A stretch of DNA of 64,000 bases from Thermoanaerobacter ethanolicus JW 200 (lineage in GTDB: Bacteria > Bacillota > Thermoanaerobacteria > Thermoanaerobacterales > Thermoanaerobacteraceae). The stretch's first letter is position 1, and each line of letters opens with the position of its first letter. The notes under the pieces were generated by a model. It did no database searches. It was not told where the DNA came from and saw only the letters and a program-made list of their open reading frames with translations. Below are positions 1,504 to 47,892 of this stretch, one piece after another. The position numbers were made by a program, and so were the translations under genes. The stretch is taken from positions 1,115,001 to 1,179,000 of the forward strand of contig NZ_CP033580.1 of assembly GCF_003722315.1 (NCBI RefSeq), written 5' to 3'.

Positions 1504-1580
1504 GCGCCCGTAGCTCAGCAGGATAGAGCAGCAGTTTCCTAAACTGCGTGCCGGAGGTTCGAGTCCTCTCGGGCGCACCA
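1504..1580 (+). tRNA. tRNA-Arg (CCT)
   Basis: A complete cloverleaf of 77 bases with an encoded CCA end. The acceptor arms GCGCCCG/CGGGCGC pair, the T-loop GGTTCGAGTCC is standard, and the anticodon loop TTCCTAA carries CCT. The hairpin at 1604-1636 (repeated with a T-run at 1902-1938) is probably its terminator. Confidence 0.97.
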
Positions 1581-1636
1581 TTACCATAGAAATTAGTAAT
1601 ATCAAGGATTCTAACTATCTTATAGTTAGAATCCTT

Positions 1637-1901
1637 CAGCTTGTTGACAAAGTTAAAAAATATTCAAAGGAGATATTTTGCATCGTCGCTCCGATGTTCC
1701 AAAGCGACAAAACTAAAGCTCGACCTTCGGGCTCCGGCAGGGTACCGGGCACAATCGGCCTCCTTGCCTCAGGTGCCCGCCTTCGCCATCCATGGCTTCG
1801 GCCCTGCCTCCACCCTCGGTCTTGCTAAGTTTTGTTACCGCTTTGTAACAAGTCGCTCCTTATGCAAAATATCTCCTTTACGAAAGTTTGTCTACAGTCT
1901 G
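1637..1901 (+). repeat. Terminator-flanked structured element, copy A
   Basis: A 265-bp GC-rich element with imperfect terminal inverted repeats, CAG-CTTGTTGACAAA at the left and its counterpart TTTGTCTACAGTCTG at the right. A second, longer inverted repeat lies inside (AAAGGAGATATTTTGCAT / ATGCAAAATATCTCCTTT). The centre folds into nested helices, including GGCAGGG/CCCTGCC and GGGCAC/GTGCCC. A 33-base hairpin is present on both sides as a direct repeat (1604-1636 and 1902-1934); only the right one is followed by T residues. Three more copies occur at 27146, 40082 and 46095. Open frames across it differ between copies and are not genes. Its mobility is inferred from copy number and flanking duplications. 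Confidence 0.8.
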
Positions 1902-1938
1902 AAGGATTCTAACTATCTTATAGTTAGAATCCTTTTTT
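1902..1938 (+). terminator. Intrinsic terminator, duplicated around copy A
   Basis: The AAGGATTCTAACTAT / ATAGTTAGAATCCTT hairpin followed by a T-run. The same hairpin without the T-run is at 1604-1636. The group II intron begins 2 bases further on. Confidence 0.85.
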
Positions 1939-1940
1939 AC

Positions 1941-3852
1941 GTGCGCCCGGCATGGGCGATAACTAGGCGGTGAAAGTCCGCTGTGGGCTTGGTAGTGGGA
2001 ACCACTAGCCAAGAGCAAGGGTGTCCATCGTGAGGTGGAATCTGAAGGAAGCTTAAGGCAAAATCTCGGTCTGATGAACAAGAACCAGATAAGAGGCTGA
2101 ATTGGGGTGGATGAGTTTGCGTAACAAAACGAAGTCCAACACTACCCGAACCCCATACAGTAAATCTGGCAGATATATGAGATGAAAGTTATCGTTCTTA
2201 CCCGGGGAGGTCTCAAGGATAAGTCATGGAAGTAAAATCTGAAGTGACAACCCATGCAGTGATGTATGGCTGAACCTTGAGAAGTCAGCAGAGGTCATAG
2301 TACTTATCTAGACATGAATAGATAAGGAAGGACCGAACGTTAGGAGGTTTTGAAAATCTTATGGACTCGAAAGATATGCAGAGACTGCAGACAACTCAAC
2401 AAAGAGGCTATCCGTTGAATAGAGAAATGGAATTTCAAAAGACAACGGAAGTGCATAGTATATCATCGGCGTCGGAAGATGGAAGAAACGAGGTACAAAG
2501 ATATACCGGCAAGATGCTTGAAATGATAGTAGAACGAGGGAACATGGAAGCAGCATACAAGCGCGTTGTTGCAAATAAAGGAAGCCATGGAGTCGATGGG
2601 ATGGAAGTAGATGAACTTCTACCGTATCTCAAAGAAAACTGGCCAACCATAAAACAACAACTGCTGGAGGGGAAATACAAACCACAACCAGTGCGAAGAG
2701 TAGAAATTCCCAAACCAGATGGAGGAGTAAGACTCCTAGGAATACCTACAGTACTAGACAGACTAATACAACAAGCAATAGCCCAAATACTAAATAGAGT
2801 CTACAACCATACATTTTCTGATAGCAGTTATGGATTCAGACCAGGACGCAGTGCAAAAGACGCAATAAAAGCCGCAGAAGCATACATAAATGAAGGATAC
2901 ACATGGGTTGTAGATATGGACTTAGAAAAGTTCTTTGACAGAGTAAACCACGACATAATAATGTCCAAACTAGAAAAGCGGATAGGAGATAAAAGGGTAC
3001 TAAAGTTAATACGAAGATACCTAGAATCAGGAGTAATGATAAACGGAATCAAAATATCAACAGAAGAAGGGACACCCCAAGGAGGGCCATTAAGTCCCCT
3101 ATTAGCAAACATAATGTTGGACGAACTAGACAAAGAACTTGAGAAACGAGGGCATAAATTCTGCCGATATGCAGATGACTGCAACATATATGTAAAAAGC
3201 AGGTCTGCAGGAAACAGAGTAATGAAGAGCATAAAGAAATTCATAGAAAGCAAATTAAAACTAAAAGTCAACGAAGCAAAAAGTGCTGTAGATAGACCAT
3301 GGAGAAGAAAATTTCTTGGATTTTCATTCTATACAAAAGAAAACGAAGTAAGAATAAGAATCCATGAAAAATCCATCAAAAGGTTTAAGGAAAAAGTAAG
3401 AGAAATAACCAATCGGAACAAGGGAATAAGCATGGAAAACAGAATAAAAAGACTAAATCAAATAACAACAGGATGGGTCAACTATTTTGGATTAGCAGAC
3501 GCGAAAAGCATAATGAAAACCCTTGACGAATGGATAAGGCGAAGACTAAGGGCATGTATATGGAAACAATGGAAGAAGATAAAAACGAAGCATGATAACT
3601 TAGTAAAACTAGGAGTAGAAGAACAAAAAGCCTGGGAATACGCCAATACAAGGAAAGGCTACTGGAGAATATCCAATAGCCCAATCCTAAATAAGACTCT
3701 TACAAATAAATACTTTGAAAGCATAGGTTATAAGAGTTTATCCCAAAGATATCTAATTGTACACAATTCCTAATGAACCGCCGTATACCGAACGGTACGT
3801 ACGGTGGTGTGAGAGGACGCTGAATAAAATAATTATTCAGCTCCTACTCGAT
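1941..3852 (+). mobile_element. Group IIC intron, full length
   Basis: The 5' end GTGCGCCCGG is a typical group II intron start and directly follows a terminator T-run, the usual landing site of class C introns. About 420 bases of structured RNA precede the reverse transcriptase frame. After the frame comes domain V (about 3776-3807, with a CGC-type catalytic triad) and domain VI with the branch-site A, ending in ...CTCGAT. A second copy at 40379-43953 fixes both ends by comparison. No sign of damage is visible, so it may still splice and move. The exact 3' base is uncertain by one position. Confidence 0.9.
2361..3773 (+). CDS. ltrA: Group II intron reverse transcriptase/maturase (class C)
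   Basis: A 470-residue intron-encoded protein that helps splicing and copies the intron into DNA at new sites. The fingers/palm domain includes the GTPQGGPLSPLLANI block and the YADD catalytic motif at residues 270-273. The maturase/thumb part carries GWVNYFG and a basic WIRRRLR segment. There is no HNH endonuclease domain, as expected for class C. From memory it resembles the Geobacillus GsI-IIC enzyme along most of its length, with about 50 extra N-terminal residues. The start is ATG 2361, 13 bases after AGGAGG, which is long spacing; an internal start is possible. Confidence 0.95.
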   Translation: MDSKDMQRLQTTQQRGYPLNREMEFQKTTEVHSISSASEDGRNEVQRYTGKMLEMIVERGNMEAAYKRVVANKGSHGVDGMEVDELLPYLKENWPTIKQQLLEGKYKPQPVRRVEIPKPDGGVRLLGIPTVLDRLIQQAIAQILNRVYNHTFSDSSYGFRPGRSAKDAIKAAEAYINEGYTWVVDMDLEKFFDRVNHDIIMSKLEKRIGDKRVLKLIRRYLESGVMINGIKISTEEGTPQGGPLSPLLANIMLDELDKELEKRGHKFCRYADDCNIYVKSRSAGNRVMKSIKKFIESKLKLKVNEAKSAVDRPWRRKFLGFSFYTKENEVRIRIHEKSIKRFKEKVREITNRNKGISMENRIKRLNQITTGWVNYFGLADAKSIMKTLDEWIRRRLRACIWKQWKKIKTKHDNLVKLGVEEQKAWEYANTRKGYWRISNSPILNKTLTNKYFESIGYKSLSQRYLIVHNS

Positions 3853-7272: not shown

Positions 7273-7296
7273 ATAAGTGGGACAATTGAATAAAAA

Positions 7297-7369
7297 TCAC
7301 TCATATAATCTCGAGAATATGGCTCGAGAGTCTCTACCGAACAACCGTAAATTGTTCGACTATGAGTGA
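7297..7369 (+). promoter_or_regulatory. Guanine aptamer of a tandem riboswitch
   Basis: A second purine aptamer: P1 TCACTCATA/TATGAGTGA, conserved ATAATC and a GAGTCTCTAC form of the J2/3 segment. The discriminator in GACTATG is C (7360), so it is guanine type. Its P1 ends immediately before a ykkC-type aptamer. Confidence 0.93.
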
Positions 7370-7370
7370 A

Positions 7371-7478
7371 AGTGTACCTAGGGTTCCAGCCTATTTATAG
7401 GTGTTCGGACCGAGCGGTACAGGTATATGTTTATATACCACACCTTAGGGACAAAAGCCCGGGAGGATAGGTTTCACT
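7371..7478 (+). promoter_or_regulatory. PRPP aptamer (ykkC class) of the tandem riboswitch
   Basis: Hallmarks of ykkC RNAs are present: CTAGGGTTCC near the 5' end, GGACCGAGCGGTAC in the middle, ACACCTTAGGGACAAAAGCCCGGG at the 3' side split over 7439-7463, and a closing helix AGTG..CCT with AGG..CACT. The 3' part overlaps the 5' arm of the terminator. Placement behind a guanine aptamer and ahead of purine genes matches the published guanine-PRPP tandems rather than the guanidine or ppGpp subclasses. The ligand is inferred from this context. Confidence 0.9.
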
Positions 7479-27117: not shown

Positions 27118-27145
27118 ACTTAAAACCTCGTGAAAAGGAGGCTTT

Positions 27146-27469
27146 AGCTTGTTGACAAAATATTATCGCTGTTGGCATTTTGCATAGTTTGCTCCGGTGA
27201 TATCGCAGACTAAACTAGCGCTCGTCCTCGGGCTCAAGCGGGGCTCCGGGCACATTCGTCATCCTTGACTTAGTGCCCGCCTCCGCCATCACAAGGCTAC
27301 GGCCCCGCTTTCGCCTCTCAGCCTCGCTAAGTTTCCCGGCACTCAACTGAACGGGCTGGTCTTTTCTCTTATTCTCCTTTTTTAACATTTTCGGTTGAGT
27401 GCCGGGCTATCAAGTCGCTACACTTATGCAAAATGCCAACATGTTATATAAAGGTTTGTCTACAGTTTG
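27146..27469 (+). repeat. Terminator-flanked structured element, divergent copy C
   Basis: About 324 bp. It shares the outer ends (CTTGTTGACAAA ... TTTGTCTACAG) and the order of GC-rich blocks with copies A, B and D. The inner inverted repeat is different: GTTGGCATTTTGCATA with TATGCAAAATGCCAAC. A central helix is GCGGGGC/GCCCCGC where the others have GGCAGGG/CCCTGCC. A 14-bp hairpin (CCCGGCACTCAAC / GTTGAGTGCCGGG, 27339-27408) replaces the small GTTAC/GTAAC hairpin. CCTCG-stem hairpins flank it at 27122-27145 and 27471-27490. Type of element unknown. Confidence 0.75.
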
Positions 27470-27470
27470 A

Positions 27471-27498
27471 GACCTCGCTTTCACGAGGTCTTATTTTA
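27471..27498 (+). terminator. Terminator flanking copy C
   Basis: GACCTCG/CGAGGTC with a 6-base loop, then a T-rich run. A related hairpin (AACCTCG.../...GGAGGCTT) directly follows the hydG stop on the other side of the element. Confidence 0.75.
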
Positions 27499-40057: not shown

Positions 40058-40081
40058 GTAGCCTACACAAAGTGTAGGCTA

Positions 40082-40347
40082 CAGTTTGTTGACAAAGTTA
40101 AAAAATATTCAAAGGAGATATTTTGCATCGTCGCTCCGATGTTTCAAAGCGACAAAACTAAAGCTCGTCCTTCGGGCTCCGGCAGGGTACCGGGCACAAT
40201 CGGCATCCATGCCTTAAGGTGCCCGCCTTCGCCATCCGTGGCTACGGCCCTGCCTCCACCCTCGGTCTTGTTAAGTTTTGTTGACGCTTTGTAACAAGTC
40301 GCTCCTTATGCAAAATATCTCCTTTACGAAAGTTTGTCTACAGTCTG
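40082..40347 (+). repeat. Terminator-flanked structured element, copy B
   Basis: 266 bp, nearly the same as copy A, with CAGTTTGTTGACAAA at the left end and TTTGTCTACAGTCTG at the right. It is flanked by the direct repeat TAGCCTACAC-AAA-GTGTAGGCTA at 40059-40081 and 40348-40370, itself a hairpin; only the right copy has T residues after it. The flanking hairpin differs from that of copy A, so it belongs to the target. The element kept gatB with a working terminator. Confidence 0.82.
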
Positions 40348-40376
40348 TAGCCTACACAAAGTGTAGGCTATTTTTT
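40348..40376 (+). terminator. gatB terminator, duplicated around copy B
   Basis: TAGCCTACAC/GTGTAGGCTA, 3-base loop, TTTTTT. The intron starts 3 bases later. Confidence 0.87.
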
Positions 40377-41595
40377 ATGTGCGCCCGGCATGGGCGATAA
40401 CTAGGCGGTGAAAGTCCGCTGTGGGCTTGGTAGTGGGAACCACTAGCCAAGAGCAAGGGTGTCCATCGTGAGGTGGAATCTGAAGGAAGCTTAAGGCAAA
40501 ATCTCGGTCTGATGAACAAGAACCAGATAAGAGGCTGAATTGGGATGGATGAGTTTGCGTAACAAAACGAAGTCCAACACTACCCGAATCCCATACAGTA
40601 AATCTGGCAGATAGATGAGATGAAAGTTATCGTTCTTACCCGGGGAGGTCTCAAGGATAAGTCATGGAAGTAAAATCTGAAGTGACAACCCATGCAGTGA
40701 TGTATGGCTGAACCTTGAGAAGTCAGCAGAGGTCATAGTACTTATCTAGACATGAATAGATAAGGAAGGACCGAACGTTAGGAGGTTTTGGAAATCTTAT
40801 GGACTCGAAAGATATGCAGAGACTGCAGACAACTCAACAAAGAGGCTATCCGTTGAATAGAGAAATGGAATTTCAAAAGACAACGGAAGTGCATAGTATA
40901 TCATCGGCGTCGGAAGATGGAAGAAACGAGGTACAAAGATATACCGGCAAGATGCTTGAAATGATAGTAGAACGAGGGAACATGGAAGCAGCATACAAGC
41001 GCGTTGTTGCAAATAAAGGAAGCCATGGAGTCGATGGGATGGAAGTAGATGAACTTCTACCGTATCTCAAAGAAAACTGGGCAACCATAAAACAACAACT
41101 GCTGGAGGGGAAATACAAACCACAACCAGTGCGAAGAGTAGAAATTCCCAAACCAGATGGAGGAGTAAGACTACTAGGAATACCTACAGTACTAGACAGA
41201 CTAATACAACAAGCAATAGCCCAAATACTAAATAAAGTCTACAACCATACATTTTCTGATAGCAGTTATGGATTCAGACCAGGACGCAGTGCAAAAGACG
41301 CAATAAAAGCCGCAGAAGCATACATAAATGAAGGATACACATGGGTTGTAGATATGGACTTAGAAAAGTTCTTTGACAGAGTAAACCACGACATAATAAT
41401 GTCCAAACTAGAAAAGCGGATAGGAGATAAAAGGGTACTAAAGTTAACACGAAAATAGACTATCTAAAAGGAGAATTTTGAACATTGACAACTGCATAGG
41501 CTTAAACATCCAGCCAGAAAAAAGGTAATAAATATTAAACCAATGCTTTAAAAGCATCAGCTGGGAATTTTTGTAAAGTTATCTAATTATACTAC

Positions 41596-42848
41596 TTAAA
41601 TTTGGGACACTGTTACTTCTAAACCCAACTTGCGAGCTTCGTTAATAATCCGTTTAACGCGAATTATTTCCTGTTTCTTTCGCACTTCATCGAAAATTCT
41701 TTCATCATAGTCAGTGTTATTTTTAAGCATAGTATAAATGATAACTAATATTTTCCTGGCAAGTGCTACTACCGCTTTTTTTGTACCACGGCGCTGCTTT
41801 ACTTTCCAATACCATGTGGCAAGATATGAATCCCTTATGCGGGTTATACTCCATGCTACTTCACACAGTATCCTCTTTATATAAGTGTTTCCTTTTGTTA
41901 CTCGAGTGGACTTTTTTTTCCCGCACTTTCATTATTACCGGGACTTAATCCTGCCCATGAGCAAATGTGCTCTGCAGTCTTGAATTTATCCATATCTGTA
42001 CCTATTTCAGCAATTATTGCAGCAGCTGCCGTTACATCTATGCCAGGTATTCCATCTAGCTGTTCAATCTGTCTCTTGTATTTTTCAATCTCAGCATTAA
42101 TACTCTCTTCTATCTCATAAAGATGTTTATACGTTTCATCTAAATGATTGAGTAAAAGCTTTAAAAATTCTCTTTGATGCTTATTCATTCTACCATTAAT
42201 TGATAGCTTTATGTCTTCTATTTTACTGCGTGCTCTCCCTCTTACATAATTTTCAACTTCTTTAGCTGTTATACTTCCATGCTCTGCTATATGGTCTATT
42301 ATCGCTCTACCTGATACGCCAAATATATCTGTCAAAAAATTTGAAAGCTTAAATCCACAGCTTTGTAAATGCTTCTCTATACGATTTTTTTGAGAAGATA
42401 TCTCTTCAATTATGCTTTTGCGATATCTCGTAAGGTTGCGTAATTCTCGAATTTCTTGCGGAGGAATAAAGCTTCCACTTAAAAGACCAGCTCTTAATAA
42501 AGTAGCAATCCATTCTGCATCTTTCATATCAGTTTTTTTACCGGGTACATTCTTCATATGTTTTGCATTAGCTACTATGATTGATATGTTACCATCAAAA
42601 GCACTTTCGAGTACGTTATATACGGGTTGCCAGTATATCCCTGTACTCTCCATGGCAACATGATGACAGTTTTCTGTTTCAAGCCATGTTTTTAATTCTT
42701 CAAGGTCTTTTAATAAAGTGGAAAATGTTCTTATCGTTTTTTCCGGCTTTTCATCATTGACAGAACCTTTAAGCAAACAAGCCACTATTGTTTCTTTGTG
42801 AACATCTAGTCCACAGCAAACTTCTAGTAAATCCTGCATTTTCTTCAC
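41596..42848 (-). CDS. IS110-type DEDD transposase, with a frame change at A8
   Basis: The first 310 or so codons (from ATG 42848) form a DEDD RuvC-like domain (GLDVHKETI at the start, VANAKHMKNVPGKKTDMKDAEW split at VANAKHMKNV) and the start of the Transposase_20 domain (LDGIPGIDVTAAAAIIAEIG, ICSWAGLSPGNNESAG, with the likely catalytic Ser). At a run of eight A (minus strand, about 41911-41918) the reading ends as KKSPLE-stop. A -1 shift continues as KKSTRVTKGNTYIKRILCEV and on to a stop at 41596, giving about 417 residues, the normal length. It is either a frameshift mutation or programmed/slippage expression. Confidence 0.85.
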
Positions 42849-43106
42849 TCCTGTTAAATTTATTACAGGGTTGATTACCTGAGAAAAATAAGAAACTTAA
42901 CACCCGTGCTGTTCCCATATTGCCTTAATATGGGGCGACAATTGGTTGTGCTCAAAGGTAATCAAGTTAGGTTAATTCACGAGGTATTAATCCATCAGCA
43001 TTAAATCAACCTTTGACCCTGTTAATTTTAGTTTACCAAAAAACTAGTTTCTTGCAACTTGAAAATTTATTTTCATCTATGGTTGTGCTTTGTTAAGCAT
43101 GGAGGG
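42849..43106 (-). ncRNA. Candidate IS110 bridge RNA region
   Basis: The 258 bases between the element end and the transposase start are where IS110-subgroup elements encode their bridge RNA. Read on the minus strand there is a strong hairpin CCCATATT/AATATGGG and two loops. TTAATAC (minus strand, 42984-42990) is complementary to the target segment GTATTAA, and a nearby ATTAAC (42971-42976 region) equals the target across the junction. A GTGTTAA copy of the other element end is near 42899-42906. Matches this short could be chance; the position is the stronger evidence. Confidence 0.5.
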
Positions 43107-43944
43107 TTAATACGAAGATACCTAGAATCAGGAGTAATGATAAACGGAATCAAAGTATCAACAGAAGAAGGGACACCCCAAGGAGGGCCATTAAGTCCCC
43201 TATTAGCAAACATAATGTTGGACGAACTAGACAAAGAACTTGAGAAACGAGGGCATAAATTCTGCCGATATGCAGATGACTGCAACATATATGTAAAAAG
43301 CAGGTCTGCAGGAGACAGAGTAATGAAGAGCATAAAGAAATTCATAGAAAGCAAATTAAAACTAAAAGTCAACGAAGCAAAAAGTGCTGTAGATAGACCA
43401 TGGAGAAGAAAATTTCTTGGATTTTCATTCTATACAAAAGAAAACGAAGTAAGAATAAGAATCCATGAAAAATCCATCAAAAGGTTTAAGGAAAAAGTAA
43501 GAGAAATAACCAATCGGAACAAGGGAATAAGCATGGAAAACAGAATAAAAAGACTAAATCAAATAACAACAGGATGGGTCAACTATTTTGGATTAGCAGA
43601 CGCGAAAAGCATAATGAAAACCCTTGACGAATGGATAAGGCGAAGACTAAGGGCATGTATATGGAAACAATGGAAGAAGATAAAAACGAAGCATGATAAC
43701 TTAGTAAAACTAGGAGTAGAAGAACAAAAAGCCTGGGAATACGCCAATACAAGGAAAGGCTACTGGAGAATATCCAATAGCCCAATCCTAAATAAGACTC
43801 TTACAAATAAATACTTTGAAAGCATAGGTTATAAGAGTTTATCCCAAAGATATCTAATTGTACACAATTCCTAATGAACCGCCGTATACCGAACGGTACG
43901 TACGGTGGTGTGAGAGGACGCTGAATAAAATAATTATTCAGCTC

Positions 43945-44121
43945 CTACTCGATTGGAACATAATAAGCACAATTTATTTTCATGTTTTCACTATTTAAAT
44001 TGTCTTTATTGTAGTTATCATCAACAAAACTATTGTTCTTTATCATTTGTGAGAGGTCAGATAAAGTGCATTTTCCTTCTTTTTGATAAATACAATCGGC
44101 TGTGCAATTTATATTAGTCAC
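43945..44121 (-). CDS. Small Cys-rich protein (DUF1540-like)
   Basis: A 58-residue protein beginning VTNINCTADCIYQKEGKCTL; Cys at 6, 10, 18 and near the end (NCAYY) suggest a small metal-binding or disulfide protein found in clostridia. GTG 44121 is preferred, 8 bases after GGGAGG; an earlier GTG overlaps that site. The last codons (Ile-Glu-stop) come from the 3' end of the intron: insertion changed the C-terminus. Without the intron the frame would run a few codons into the gatB terminator. Function unknown. Confidence 0.72.
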   Translation of the reverse strand: MTNINCTADCIYQKEGKCTLSDLSQMIKNNSFVDDNYNKDNLNSENMKINCAYYVPIE

Positions 44122-46070: not shown

Positions 46071-46341
46071 TTTATCTGTTTTTTTAAACCAGGTCAGACT
46101 GTAGACAAATTTTCGTAAAGGAGATATTTTGCATAAGGAGCGACTTGTTACAAAGCGGTAACAAAACTTAGCAAGACCGAGGGTGGAGGCAGGGCCGAAG
46201 CCATGGATGGCGGAGGCGGGCACCTTAAGGCATGGATGCCGATTGTGCCCGGTACCCTGCCGGAGCCTGAAGGTCGAGCTTTTAGTTTTGTCGCTTTGGA
46301 ACATCGGAGCGACGATGCAAAATATCTCCTTTGAATATTTT

Positions 46342-47837
46342 GGTTCTTTGTCAATAGTTGGGGTGGGTATTTTTTTCTGAATGCCCACCTATAAATTTTA
46401 TAACAAGAAATATTTGTTAAATTATGTTAGTTATGATAAAAGATATAGCTAGAAGTATGGGTGGATATTTATCTATGTCTTTTCATCAAAGCTCTATAAT
46501 ATCCTTGAATATCCTTTATCACTAAAAATAGCATTGCATCAAGCATTGCAATATAATATCCTTTTCCTGAATCGATAAAAATTTCTATAGCCATATGCAA
46601 GCCTTTTTAGTACTTTAATTTTATTATTGTAACCTTCTGTTACAGAATTAGTGTAAGGTATATCAAAGGCATTTGTTATTTCTTCAAACCAACGGTTAAA
46701 TACTTGCACACATCTTTTAAATTCATCAATTTTGCTTTCTTTAGCTAACTGTATCCATCTTTTTAATTCTATTTTTGCCTCCTTTGAATTTTTGCATTTT
46801 AATACTTTATCATTAAATTCTTCTTTTAAAAGGTATGCTATCCTTAAGTCGTCACTGTACCAGAACATTACTTCCAATTCTTCTTTTTGTTCTGTTGTTA
46901 AAGTATCATATTTTGCAAGAAGTAGCTTACGGCTTCTTTTGAAATATTTTCTTTTATTGTCTGGTAGCTCTTTTTGTATTCTCTTTCTTACATTTTCTAT
47001 CGCCCAATATATGTACCTTGTAAAATGAAATTTGTCTATTGCTATTTTAGCTCCTTTGAAATATGTTTTTACTGTATCTGAAAAAGGCCTCCACATGTCT
47101 ATAATAACCCACTTTACTTTATTCCTGTCTTTAAATCTTTTGAAATATTCACTTAAATTCTCTTGTTTTCTGTCTTTTAAAATATCTAATATTTTTCTTT
47201 CTTTTGGGTCTACAATAATGCAATGATATTTCCTGCCTCCAGAGTTCCCTTTGAATTCGTCTATACTGATAACTTCCGGTAATGTTTTATAATCAGGTTC
47301 TACTCCTATTGTGTCTAAAAGTCTCATCACAGTCGTAATTGATACTCCTGTAACTTCAGATATATCTTTCATGCTTTGTTGTTTTTTTAGTTGTTGTAGT
47401 ATGTAAATAGATAATCTGTTGGTCATTCTATGATAGCGCGGCAGAAAGTCTATATGTTCATAGAACTTCTTGCCACAGTGGCGACAAACGTATCTCCTCT
47501 TTTTTAGTACTATCACTGTTGGTTTCCCGAATAGCGGTACATCTTTTATCCTTTGTACTCTATAATCATGAATCTTAGATGTTATTTCCCTACATCTTGG
47601 ACAAATATGTGGTTTCTGTTTCATCTTAATATGCAGTTCTATTCTGTTGTCATTTTCTATAACACCTTCCCAAATTATCTCTTCAGATTCTAGGAAATTT
47701 GTGATATAATTACCTTGCACTTATTCTGATGCCTCCTTTTTAGATTGTTTTTTCCACTTCTATTATAGCAGGCATTCAGAATAAGTGCTCTATTTTTATT
47801 CTTTTCTCCCCTACACCCCAACATTTATTATAGAACC
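46342..47837 (-). mobile_element. ISL3-family insertion sequence, copy 1
   Basis: 1496 bp with terminal inverted repeats GGTTCTTTGTCAATAGTTGGGG and GGTTCTATAATAAATGTTGGGG (each read from its end; first 16 bases GGTTCTTTGTCAATAG). The 8-base target repeat AATATTTT is at 46334-46341 and 47838-47845. One intact transposase. It appears identical to the copy at 51200. Confidence 0.93.
46539..47720 (-). CDS. ISL3-family transposase (copy 1)
   Basis: A 393-residue DDE transposase. An N-terminal zinc ribbon (CPRC near residue 37 and CRHCGKKFY near 78) leads into a helix-turn-helix (MKDISEVTGVSITTVMRLL, split at VTGVS) and the DDE domain with ISIDEFKG, VIIDMWRPF and the final Glu in SVTEGYNNKIK. Starts at GTG 47720, about 10 bases after AGGAGG. 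Intact and probably active. Confidence 0.93.
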   Translation of the reverse strand: MQGNYITNFLESEEIIWEGVIENDNRIELHIKMKQKPHICPRCREITSKIHDYRVQRIKDVPLFGKPTVIVLKKRRYVCRHCGKKFYEHIDFLPRYHRMTNRLSIYILQQLKKQQSMKDISEVTGVSITTVMRLLDTIGVEPDYKTLPEVISIDEFKGNSGGRKYHCIIVDPKERKILDILKDRKQENLSEYFKRFKDRNKVKWVIIDMWRPFSDTVKTYFKGAKIAIDKFHFTRYIYWAIENVRKRIQKELPDNKRKYFKRSRKLLLAKYDTLTTEQKEELEVMFWYSDDLRIAYLLKEEFNDKVLKCKNSKEAKIELKRWIQLAKESKIDEFKRCVQVFNRWFEEITNAFDIPYTNSVTEGYNNKIKVLKRLAYGYRNFYRFRKRILYCNA

Positions 47838-47860
47838 AATATTTTTTAACTTTGTCAACA

Positions 47861-47892
47861 AAAAAATCTGGATTTTTAAACCAGATTTTTTT
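47861..47892 (+). terminator. Terminator flanking copy D
   Basis: AAAAAATCTGG/CCAGATTTTTT with a short loop and T-run; it works in either direction. Confidence 0.8.

Follow-up and report, generated by a model that had tools for sequence, protein, structure and literature searches.

The short repeated elements in a 64,000-nucleotide stretch of the Thermoanaerobacter ethanolicus JW 200 genome (the window; bases 1,115,001-1,179,000 of the 2.91-Mb chromosome) are very probably MITEs that an IS1182-family transposase moves in trans into host hairpins, with duplication of the whole hairpin and with an RNA of the TwoAYGGAY kind as passenger. The MITEs share their ends with complete insertion sequences (IS), whose transposase belongs to the IS1182 family. 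Whole host hairpins are duplicated at the insertions, the corresponding sites in relatives hold a single hairpin, the same hairpins have been entered repeatedly, and the core between the ends is conserved and RNA-like.

The four elements that the initial annotation had proposed for the window were confirmed at all four loci (Table 1). Their ends are inverted as described, one terminus reading CAG-C/T-TTGTTGACAAA and the opposite one CAGACTGTAGACAAA, and the folded core was borne out for copy A, which folds far better than shuffled sequences on both strands (z -9.8 and -10.6; 0 of 200 shuffles folded as well on either strand). A hairpin is present on both sides of all four copies, with the caveat that the left hairpin of the second copy is imperfect. 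The sizes given for the exact repeats, 33 and 23 bp, were correct, but the repeats belong to the first and third copies and not to the second; of the two copies said to have diverged repeats, the fourth does, while the other is the second (27145-27469) instead of the third. In copies A and C only one hairpin, the downstream one, has kept its T-tract. The IS inside copy D belongs to the ISL3 family by profile match (transposase 351 bits, cut-off 180) and is flanked by the 8-bp repeat AATATTTT (46334-46341 and 47838-47845, by eye).

Table 1. Features of the four MITE copies and their neighbours, in window positions.
Feature	Position	Strand	Length	Remarks
tRNA gene	1504..1577	+		directly 5' of the hairpin entered by copy A
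Copy A, upstream host hairpin	1604..1636		33 bp	exact direct repeat, perfect dyad; T-tract lost
Copy A, MITE	1637..1901	+	265 bp	G-rich RNA strand is minus; ends common to IS1182-family IS L031-L038
Copy A, TwoAYGGAY-like structured RNA core	1693..1852	-		RF01731 model 1-168 of 168, 27.6 bits, E 0.024, gathering 43
Copy A, downstream hairpin	1902..1934			exact repeat of 1604-1636; T-tract kept
Group II intron	1941..3850	+		adjoins second hairpin of copy A; Rfam group-II matches; 3' end to about 2 bases
Copy B, upstream hairpin	27123..27144			imperfect, diverged; by eye
Copy B, MITE	27145..27469	+	325 bp	divergent subfamily, extra internal hairpin module
Copy B, downstream hairpin	27470..27491			by eye
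Copy C, upstream hairpin	40059..40081		23 bp	exact repeat; single hairpin at this site in G006 (L195)
Copy C, MITE	40082..40347	+	266 bp	
Copy C, downstream hairpin	40348..40370			exact repeat, with T-tract
Group II intron	40379..43951	+		adjoins second hairpin of copy C; 3' end to about 2 bases
Copy D, one hairpin copy	46074..46094		21 bp	3 mismatches with the other copy; by eye
Copy D, MITE, larger part	46095..46341	-		
ISL3-family IS inside copy D, not part of the MITE	46342..47837	-		ORF 46539-47720, minus
Copy D, MITE, remaining end	47846..47860	-		
Copy D, second hairpin copy	47866..47886			followed by T-tract; by eye

The element is widespread in the genus. With copy A as the query, 47 matches at about 38 places (counted by hand) were found in the T. 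ethanolicus genome, and matches occurred in 10 of 10 genomes of the genus, this one included. The end pattern CAGNYTGTNGACAAA, searched with at most one mismatch, gave 45 forward and 49 reverse matches in the same genome, compared with 0 and 2 for a reversed control. In many copies an extra hairpin module of about 66 bp (CCCGGCACTCAA...TTGAGTGCCGGG) takes the place of a small hairpin at one fixed position; its carriers are copy B (27145-27469) and loci L040, L059, L060, L066, L067, L164 and L165. Three loci of the T. ethanolicus genome (L077, L078 and L079, of which L078 is shortened) contain the same RNA core between other ends (GCTGACATTTTGC... and TTTTGTGTGTGTAAAA). The pattern search revealed no autonomous partner for the second end type (TTGTGTGTGTAAAA), since its 3 matches in this genome equal the 3 of the control. 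In the draft genome of relative G006, at least 15 MITE copies matched copy A at one score (443 bits, 97% identity); these identical scores suggest that a burst of MITE movement may have occurred there recently.

An autonomous partner of the main end type was found in the same genome. Eight pairs of 15-bp ends, 1560 or 1566 bp apart, each enclose a single transposase ORF, which was assigned to the IS1182 family (NF033551, where two copies scored 490 and 492 bits against a cut-off of 270) and contains the Pfam domains DUF772, DDE_Tnp_1 and DDE_Tnp_1_6. One end of the MITE (CAGTTTGTTGACAAA in its commonest form) is identical to that of the IS over 15 bases, and the other matches at 14 of 15. All eight IS copies lie between exact hairpin repeats of 20-32 bp, and MITE and IS obey one target rule, with hairpin repeats of the same kind. 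The suggestion that an IS1182-type transposase moves the MITE is therefore well supported: an IS with the same ends, a transposase of this family and the same target repeat are present in one genome. The MITEs are probably mobilised in trans by this transposase, and insertion differences between species show that they have moved in the past. A protein search at 1e-60 detected the transposase in 8 of 10 genus genomes; G006 and G009, both drafts, hold many MITEs despite the absence of such a match. At 1e-15, matches to the IS1182 family were found in 9 of the 10, in 7 of them over the cut-off; the G009 match reached only 59 bits, and G006 had none at this threshold. A broken relative of the transposase (L287, best segment 50%) probably lies in the G006 draft. 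Like bacterial MITEs in general, these elements are short, non-coding and present in many copies, with terminal inverted repeats common to an IS. They differ in that the target repeat is a variable whole hairpin instead of a short sequence of fixed length, and in that a conserved structured core lies inside, with little beyond the ends in common with the IS.

The target repeat corresponds to a whole hairpin of the host. Ends were paired by script over all collected loci, which gave 65 pairs after removal of duplicates, a few of which may span neighbouring elements. A direct repeat of at least 15 bp was present at 50 of these pairs; it was 17-40 bp long and exact in 39. The 50 repeats represent 46 different hairpins, and the 39 exact ones represent 37, the remainder being the same site in two species (four sites). 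The T. ethanolicus genome contributed 26 of the 50, and 11 belong to IS copies (10 of the 39 exact ones). The mean fold energy of the 50 repeats was -11.8 kcal/mol, compared with -1.1 kcal/mol for 10,978 nearby windows of equal length, and only 39 of these 10,978 windows in the surroundings folded as well as the repeat they flank. The repeat centre coincided with the dyad centre in all 39 exact repeats, where 377 of 465 possible pairs were self-complementary, against 99-146 when the window was slid by 1-6 bp. This indicates that the length of the repeat follows the hairpin and that the two joints are symmetric about the dyad. The stem continued 1-7 pairs beyond the repeat in 16 of the 39, 1-2 unpaired bases lay inside each end in 15, and the edges were exact in 8. 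At the 15 end pairs without a repeat of at least 15 bp, a diverged hairpin was seen by eye on each side in many cases; no shared hairpin was visible by eye at L006, L015 and L071, and one IS copy (L106) had only a 6-bp non-hairpin repeat.

A T- or A-tract (TTTT after or AAAA before) adjoined 43 of the 50 repeats, compared with 2,008 of 10,000 random positions, as would be expected of intrinsic terminators. The expectation that copies lie beside terminators was thus borne out for most copies with a repeat, and the proposal that the target is a terminator holds in the sense that the targets are usually terminator-like. "Hairpin" is nevertheless the better term, since it is the dyad that fixes the repeat, not the T-tract.

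Uninterrupted sites were looked for in relatives. For 16 of the 50 sites (5 IS and 11 MITE), a query was composed of the left flank, a single hairpin and the right flank and was searched in nine relatives. For 15 of the 16, an uninterrupted site in some relative held one hairpin and not two, a result which, together with the identity of the repeats as host hairpins, upholds the claim that the duplicated unit is host target and not element. The site of copy A in T. wiegelii (G001), the closest relative among the genomes searched, matched over 113 of 113 bases with a single hairpin; a group II intron is present at this site, and the MITE is absent. Single-hairpin sites for copy C were found in G006 and G004 (sequences checked) and in G008 (by alignment); the right flank of copy C is an intron, and the single hairpin there was checked separately in sequence. 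T. wiegelii was rejected as an empty site for copy C, as the MITE is present there and its left end holds a group II intron. The exception among the 16 was L059, which had no uninterrupted site among the relatives; the same hairpin in G002 holds an IS end (L174).

The same hairpins have also been used more than once. The hairpin entered by the IS at L036 carries MITEs in G006, with a 31-bp repeat, and in G009, with a 22-bp repeat (both by eye); the joints of the G009 MITE lie within the stem, yet are symmetric. The hairpins of L034 and L033 carry MITEs in G001 and G006, the G006 one with part of a second MITE end. Repeat length differed among these insertions of an IS and of MITEs into one hairpin in different species.

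The rule extends to distant relatives of the IS. A transposase scan of GTDB genomes gave 26 loci, and the ends were tested in nine. Three IS relatives (49-52% identity), from a Bacilli MAG, an Erysipelotrichaceae MAG and Paenibacillus sp. LHD-38, have ends of the form CAG...TGT.GA.AAA and hairpin repeats of 23, 23 and 19 bp, respectively; the Bacilli MAG repeat is a weak hairpin (-2.8 kcal/mol), and the Paenibacillus repeat contains 1 mismatch, the other two being exact. The script found no repeat in the other 6 of the 9 tested loci. Four of the six are T. wiegelii copies in which group II intron sequence breaks one end; for L272 and L274 the intron was read across both its boundaries, through L298 and L299. 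At L283 (= L117) hairpin flanks are present and cannot be aligned without gaps, and L281 yielded nothing in this test.

Two other origins of the paired hairpins were weighed. In the available excerpts of PMC4923244 and PMC5678879, IS1272 and TnSha1 of the same family likewise target stem-loops, often terminators, without sequence preference, but the hairpin is deleted or replaced and target duplication is absent. Under stem-loop replacement of this type, the two hairpins flanking each element would be pre-existing neighbouring terminators; because the hairpin is duplicated, with 39 repeats exact and a single hairpin at the relatives' uninterrupted sites in 15 of 16 cases, this explanation was discarded as extremely improbable. 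The repeats might otherwise be products of recombination or gene conversion unrelated to transposition. Terminator hairpins are common, inverted repeats can recombine, and at one locus (L229) the flanking hairpin resembles the reverse complement of its partner. Against this, in all exact cases the repeat edges fall at the ends of the element, the length varies with the hairpin, and the same pattern is found for IS, for MITEs and in other genera, so that such an origin hardly deserves credence.

Duplication of the whole hairpin by transposition is thus the preferred reading, and its mechanism may be as follows. An IS1182-family transposase would act in trans on the MITE ends, with a host hairpin, usually one resembling an intrinsic terminator, as the target. 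The transposase may recognise an extruded hairpin or cruciform, and the 3' ends of the element would be joined at the 5' feet of the hairpin. The joints are symmetric about the dyad, at or near the stem feet, and the whole hairpin of 17-40 bp appears on both sides. Copies A and C suggest that the hairpin copy bearing the T-tract would still end the host transcript. Between its ends the element would carry a structured RNA resembling TwoAYGGAY, with the G-rich strand as its sense strand, and this core RNA may be transcribed and functional.

Targeting of terminators by the IS1182 family is already known from work on IS1272 and ISCbo5 (PMC4923244, PMC5678879, PMC3098183, as far as excerpted). According to the available part of PMC3098183, all but one of the sites of ISCbo5, an IS1182 element of Clostridium botulinum group III and C. 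novyi, are terminator-like hairpins at gene ends; whole-hairpin duplication, dyad symmetry, a MITE and an RNA passenger are not stated in that part. Neither dyad-centred duplication of a whole hairpin, nor a MITE, nor an RNA passenger was found in the accessible text of the IS1272 and ISCbo5 papers, and ISfinder or reviews may list whole-hairpin duplications. Duplication of a whole stem-loop is drawn in the part seen of PMC5678879 as a hypothetical alternative, pathway b, and by analogy the elements described here look like that pathway occurring in nature. The 46 different hairpins and several genera provide natural evidence for DDE transposition in which an entire hairpin is duplicated and its dyad sets the positions of the joints, and form the counterpart, within the same family, of the hairpin loss caused by IS1272. 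Reading of a cruciform by the transposase becomes a directly testable question. The duplication also offers a reason why an element can live in terminators without removing them.

Group II introns are frequent neighbours of these sites. In the window, introns follow the second hairpins of copies A and C (1941-3850 and 40379-43951); their position directly 3' of these hairpins means that two unrelated mobile elements share one terminator. An Rfam search of the window found no group II match inside the four elements, so the introns are separate neighbours, and the idea that the element is a group II intron remnant was rejected for the same reason. Introns that follow terminators, which we take to be of the class usually called IIC, have the same targets as MITE copies A and C; their insertion is RNA-based and is not known to duplicate the target. 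In the T. wiegelii genome (G001), hairpin-CAGTTTG/TTGAC is the exact insertion point of a group II intron (L297 207-862, L298 3166-3821, L299 2620-3275), which interrupts the MITE end at the copy C locus and the ends of two IS copies. A hairpin copy without a T-tract has there turned into a new intron site. Two further IS copies of this species have intron 3' sequence at their other end.

The first reading of the window had matched the element to no named family. Its core resembles the Rfam family TwoAYGGAY (RF01731), with scores in the genus just under the threshold. At the gathering threshold Rfam did not detect the core, and RF01731 appeared in a permissive run only: relative to a gathering score of 43, copy A reached 27.6 and the best copy of the T. 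ethanolicus genome 40.1 bits. In another permissive run over 15 loci, L052 scored 37.8 bits and the other 14 had no RF01731 match at E 0.1. The likeness to the published family (PMC2864571; PMC4333381) consists in a full-length match to the model, two hairpins with GGA loops, and scores over the gathering threshold for elements with the same ends in other families; the differences are that copies of this genus fall just below that threshold and that strict AYGGAY occurs in only part of the cores. Full-length RF01731 matches at E 0.01 were found in 17 of 37 genomes of the class, over the cut-off in 2, and in 0 of 14 controls; G036 alone has 32 matches. At 1e-4 the model matched 40 of 398 Bacillota genomes, 33 of them over gathering, and at least 28 of the 40 contained two or more copies, these copy counts being lower bounds because only six candidates per genome were scored in the phylum search. 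For an inverted-repeat test, 29 of 30 loci were used, one per genome (L215 from G036 was left out), and one more was dropped near a contig end. Flank-to-flank inverted complementarity exceeded the 95th percentile of mismatched flank pairs at 27 of 28 loci and the 99th at 17, figures to which the outer stem of the RNA itself may contribute and for which some control pairs came from related genomes. In the sampled genomes TwoAYGGAY is mostly multi-copy (28 of 40) and nearly always part of a longer inverted repeat (27 of 28), which gives the search for its function a different direction. These results hint that the TwoAYGGAY RNA family travels on mobile elements. In the excerpts of PMC2864571 and PMC4333381, TwoAYGGAY is treated as a structured or CsrA-binding RNA and not as a mobile passenger, and a literature search for TwoAYGGAY with transposition terms found only these two papers.

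The same two observations, the longer inverted repeats and the multiple copies, also favour the explanation that the core is only a DNA palindrome needed for transposition and no RNA, and that it matches TwoAYGGAY because the Rfam family was built from mobile palindromes. Three G007 cores lack both GGA loops and are still multi-copy, which points the same way. So does the placement of the G-rich strand, which in 39 MITE copies shows no clear bias with respect to the direction of host transcription: it opposes that direction in 17 copies and follows it in 9, the remainder being 9 copies with tracts on both sides and 4 that have no tract. Covariation is divided. It was assessed on 21 of 28 diverse cores, after three G007 rows and four with altered apical sequence had been left out. 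A hand-set structure on these rows had 95.7% paired cells, compared with 91.8% in shuffles, and 27 cells changed on both sides, compared with 7.6 in shuffles, a value that 0 of 500 reached (slid versions, at most 8). Pairs changed on both sides numbered 6, compared with 4.0 in shuffles and reached by 61 of 500, and further pair types numbered 12, compared with 14.4; two of the five measures thus do not clearly exceed shuffles. The cells changed on both sides argue for RNA. So does the G-rich strand of 68 distinct cores, whose cells comprised 1737 Watson-Crick, 111 G-U, 22 A-C and 34 other combinations (read on a structure derived from the same strand, with cells that are not independent), where a palindrome predicts about equal numbers of G-U and A-C. 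Of the 68, 63 retain GGA in loop 1 and 64 retain it in loop 2. A DNA palindrome is accordingly considered unlikely, at roughly one chance in several. A different proposal accepts the RNA and sees in it a CsrA sponge that is mobile, so that a selfish element would spread a decoy to which CsrA binds. Most cores do have two hairpins with GGA in the loop, and in the available part of PMC4333381 CsrA binding of TwoAYGGAY was proposed from motif models. Of 37 class genomes, 35 carry the csrA gene, and among these are all 17 that match RF01731 at E 0.01; since csrA is nearly universal in the class, this co-occurrence is uninformative, neither for nor against CsrA binding. Moreover, G007 has csrA, yet its cores lack the GGA loops, and strict AYGGAY occurs in loop 1 of 38, in loop 2 of 30 and in both loops of only 18 of the 68 cores. 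Sequestration of CsrA by the core RNA, a guess carried over from the published proposal, might occur, and the sponge as a whole is regarded as quite doubtful.

A structured RNA passenger is the reading retained here, and RNAs of the TwoAYGGAY kind were found between IS1182-type ends, and also between other ends, in several Bacillota families. Ends were typed, with at most 2 mismatches per end, at the 29 loci used above and in another 40 stretches that came from ten genomes. Both IS1182-type ends surround the core at six loci (L216, L222, L223, L228, L229 and L231), and genomes with the same ends lie in families other than that of the window (G067 in f35, G193 in f15, G286 in f55 and G153 in f75). 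At L216 the hairpin repeat is exact over 20 bp and has a T-tract. Judged by eye, the hairpin repeats of L228 and L231 each contain 2 mismatches (in 21 at L228), and L230 is similar; L222 and L223 are no more than suggestive. L216 and L228 score over the gathering threshold, with 51.8 and 63.3 bits across the two loci. At L229 (G153) the two hairpins, at about 415-440 and 703-730, look inverted: the reverse complement fits better, unlike the direct repeats elsewhere. The multi-copy element that holds the core in G036 is a different one: its ends are of another kind, and three copies inspected by eye have 7-bp non-palindromic repeats. The G035 copies resemble it. Of nine genomes with TwoAYGGAY from other genera, only two gave an IS1182 match at 1e-40; G153, the genome of L229 with its IS1182-type ends, was not one of them.

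We infer that TwoAYGGAY may be mobile throughout. It is conceivable, though the balance is against it, that TwoAYGGAY is at heart a mobile structured RNA carried by MITEs that belong to two or more unrelated transposition systems, one copying the whole target hairpin and another with repeats of about 7 bp (G036), and that its two CsrA-like loops bring a new putative regulator with each insertion. If this were true, a class of sRNA would spread by transposition into terminators and drop regulators at gene ends.

Several minor observations may be added. In genus g3 of the window's family, L129, L132, L137 and L143 represent one TwoAYGGAY-like match per genome. By eye, the match lies between apparently the same two genes each time, one for a peptidoglycan-binding protein and one for glycerate kinase, but species differ in its orientation, which can point either way. 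In G067, the TwoAYGGAY element with an exact hairpin duplication at L216 lies about 0.6 kb from a 6S RNA gene (1501-1656 and 2272-2457). In the window itself (7281-7467, plus strand), a match to a purine riboswitch and one to a guanidine-I riboswitch share 16 bases.
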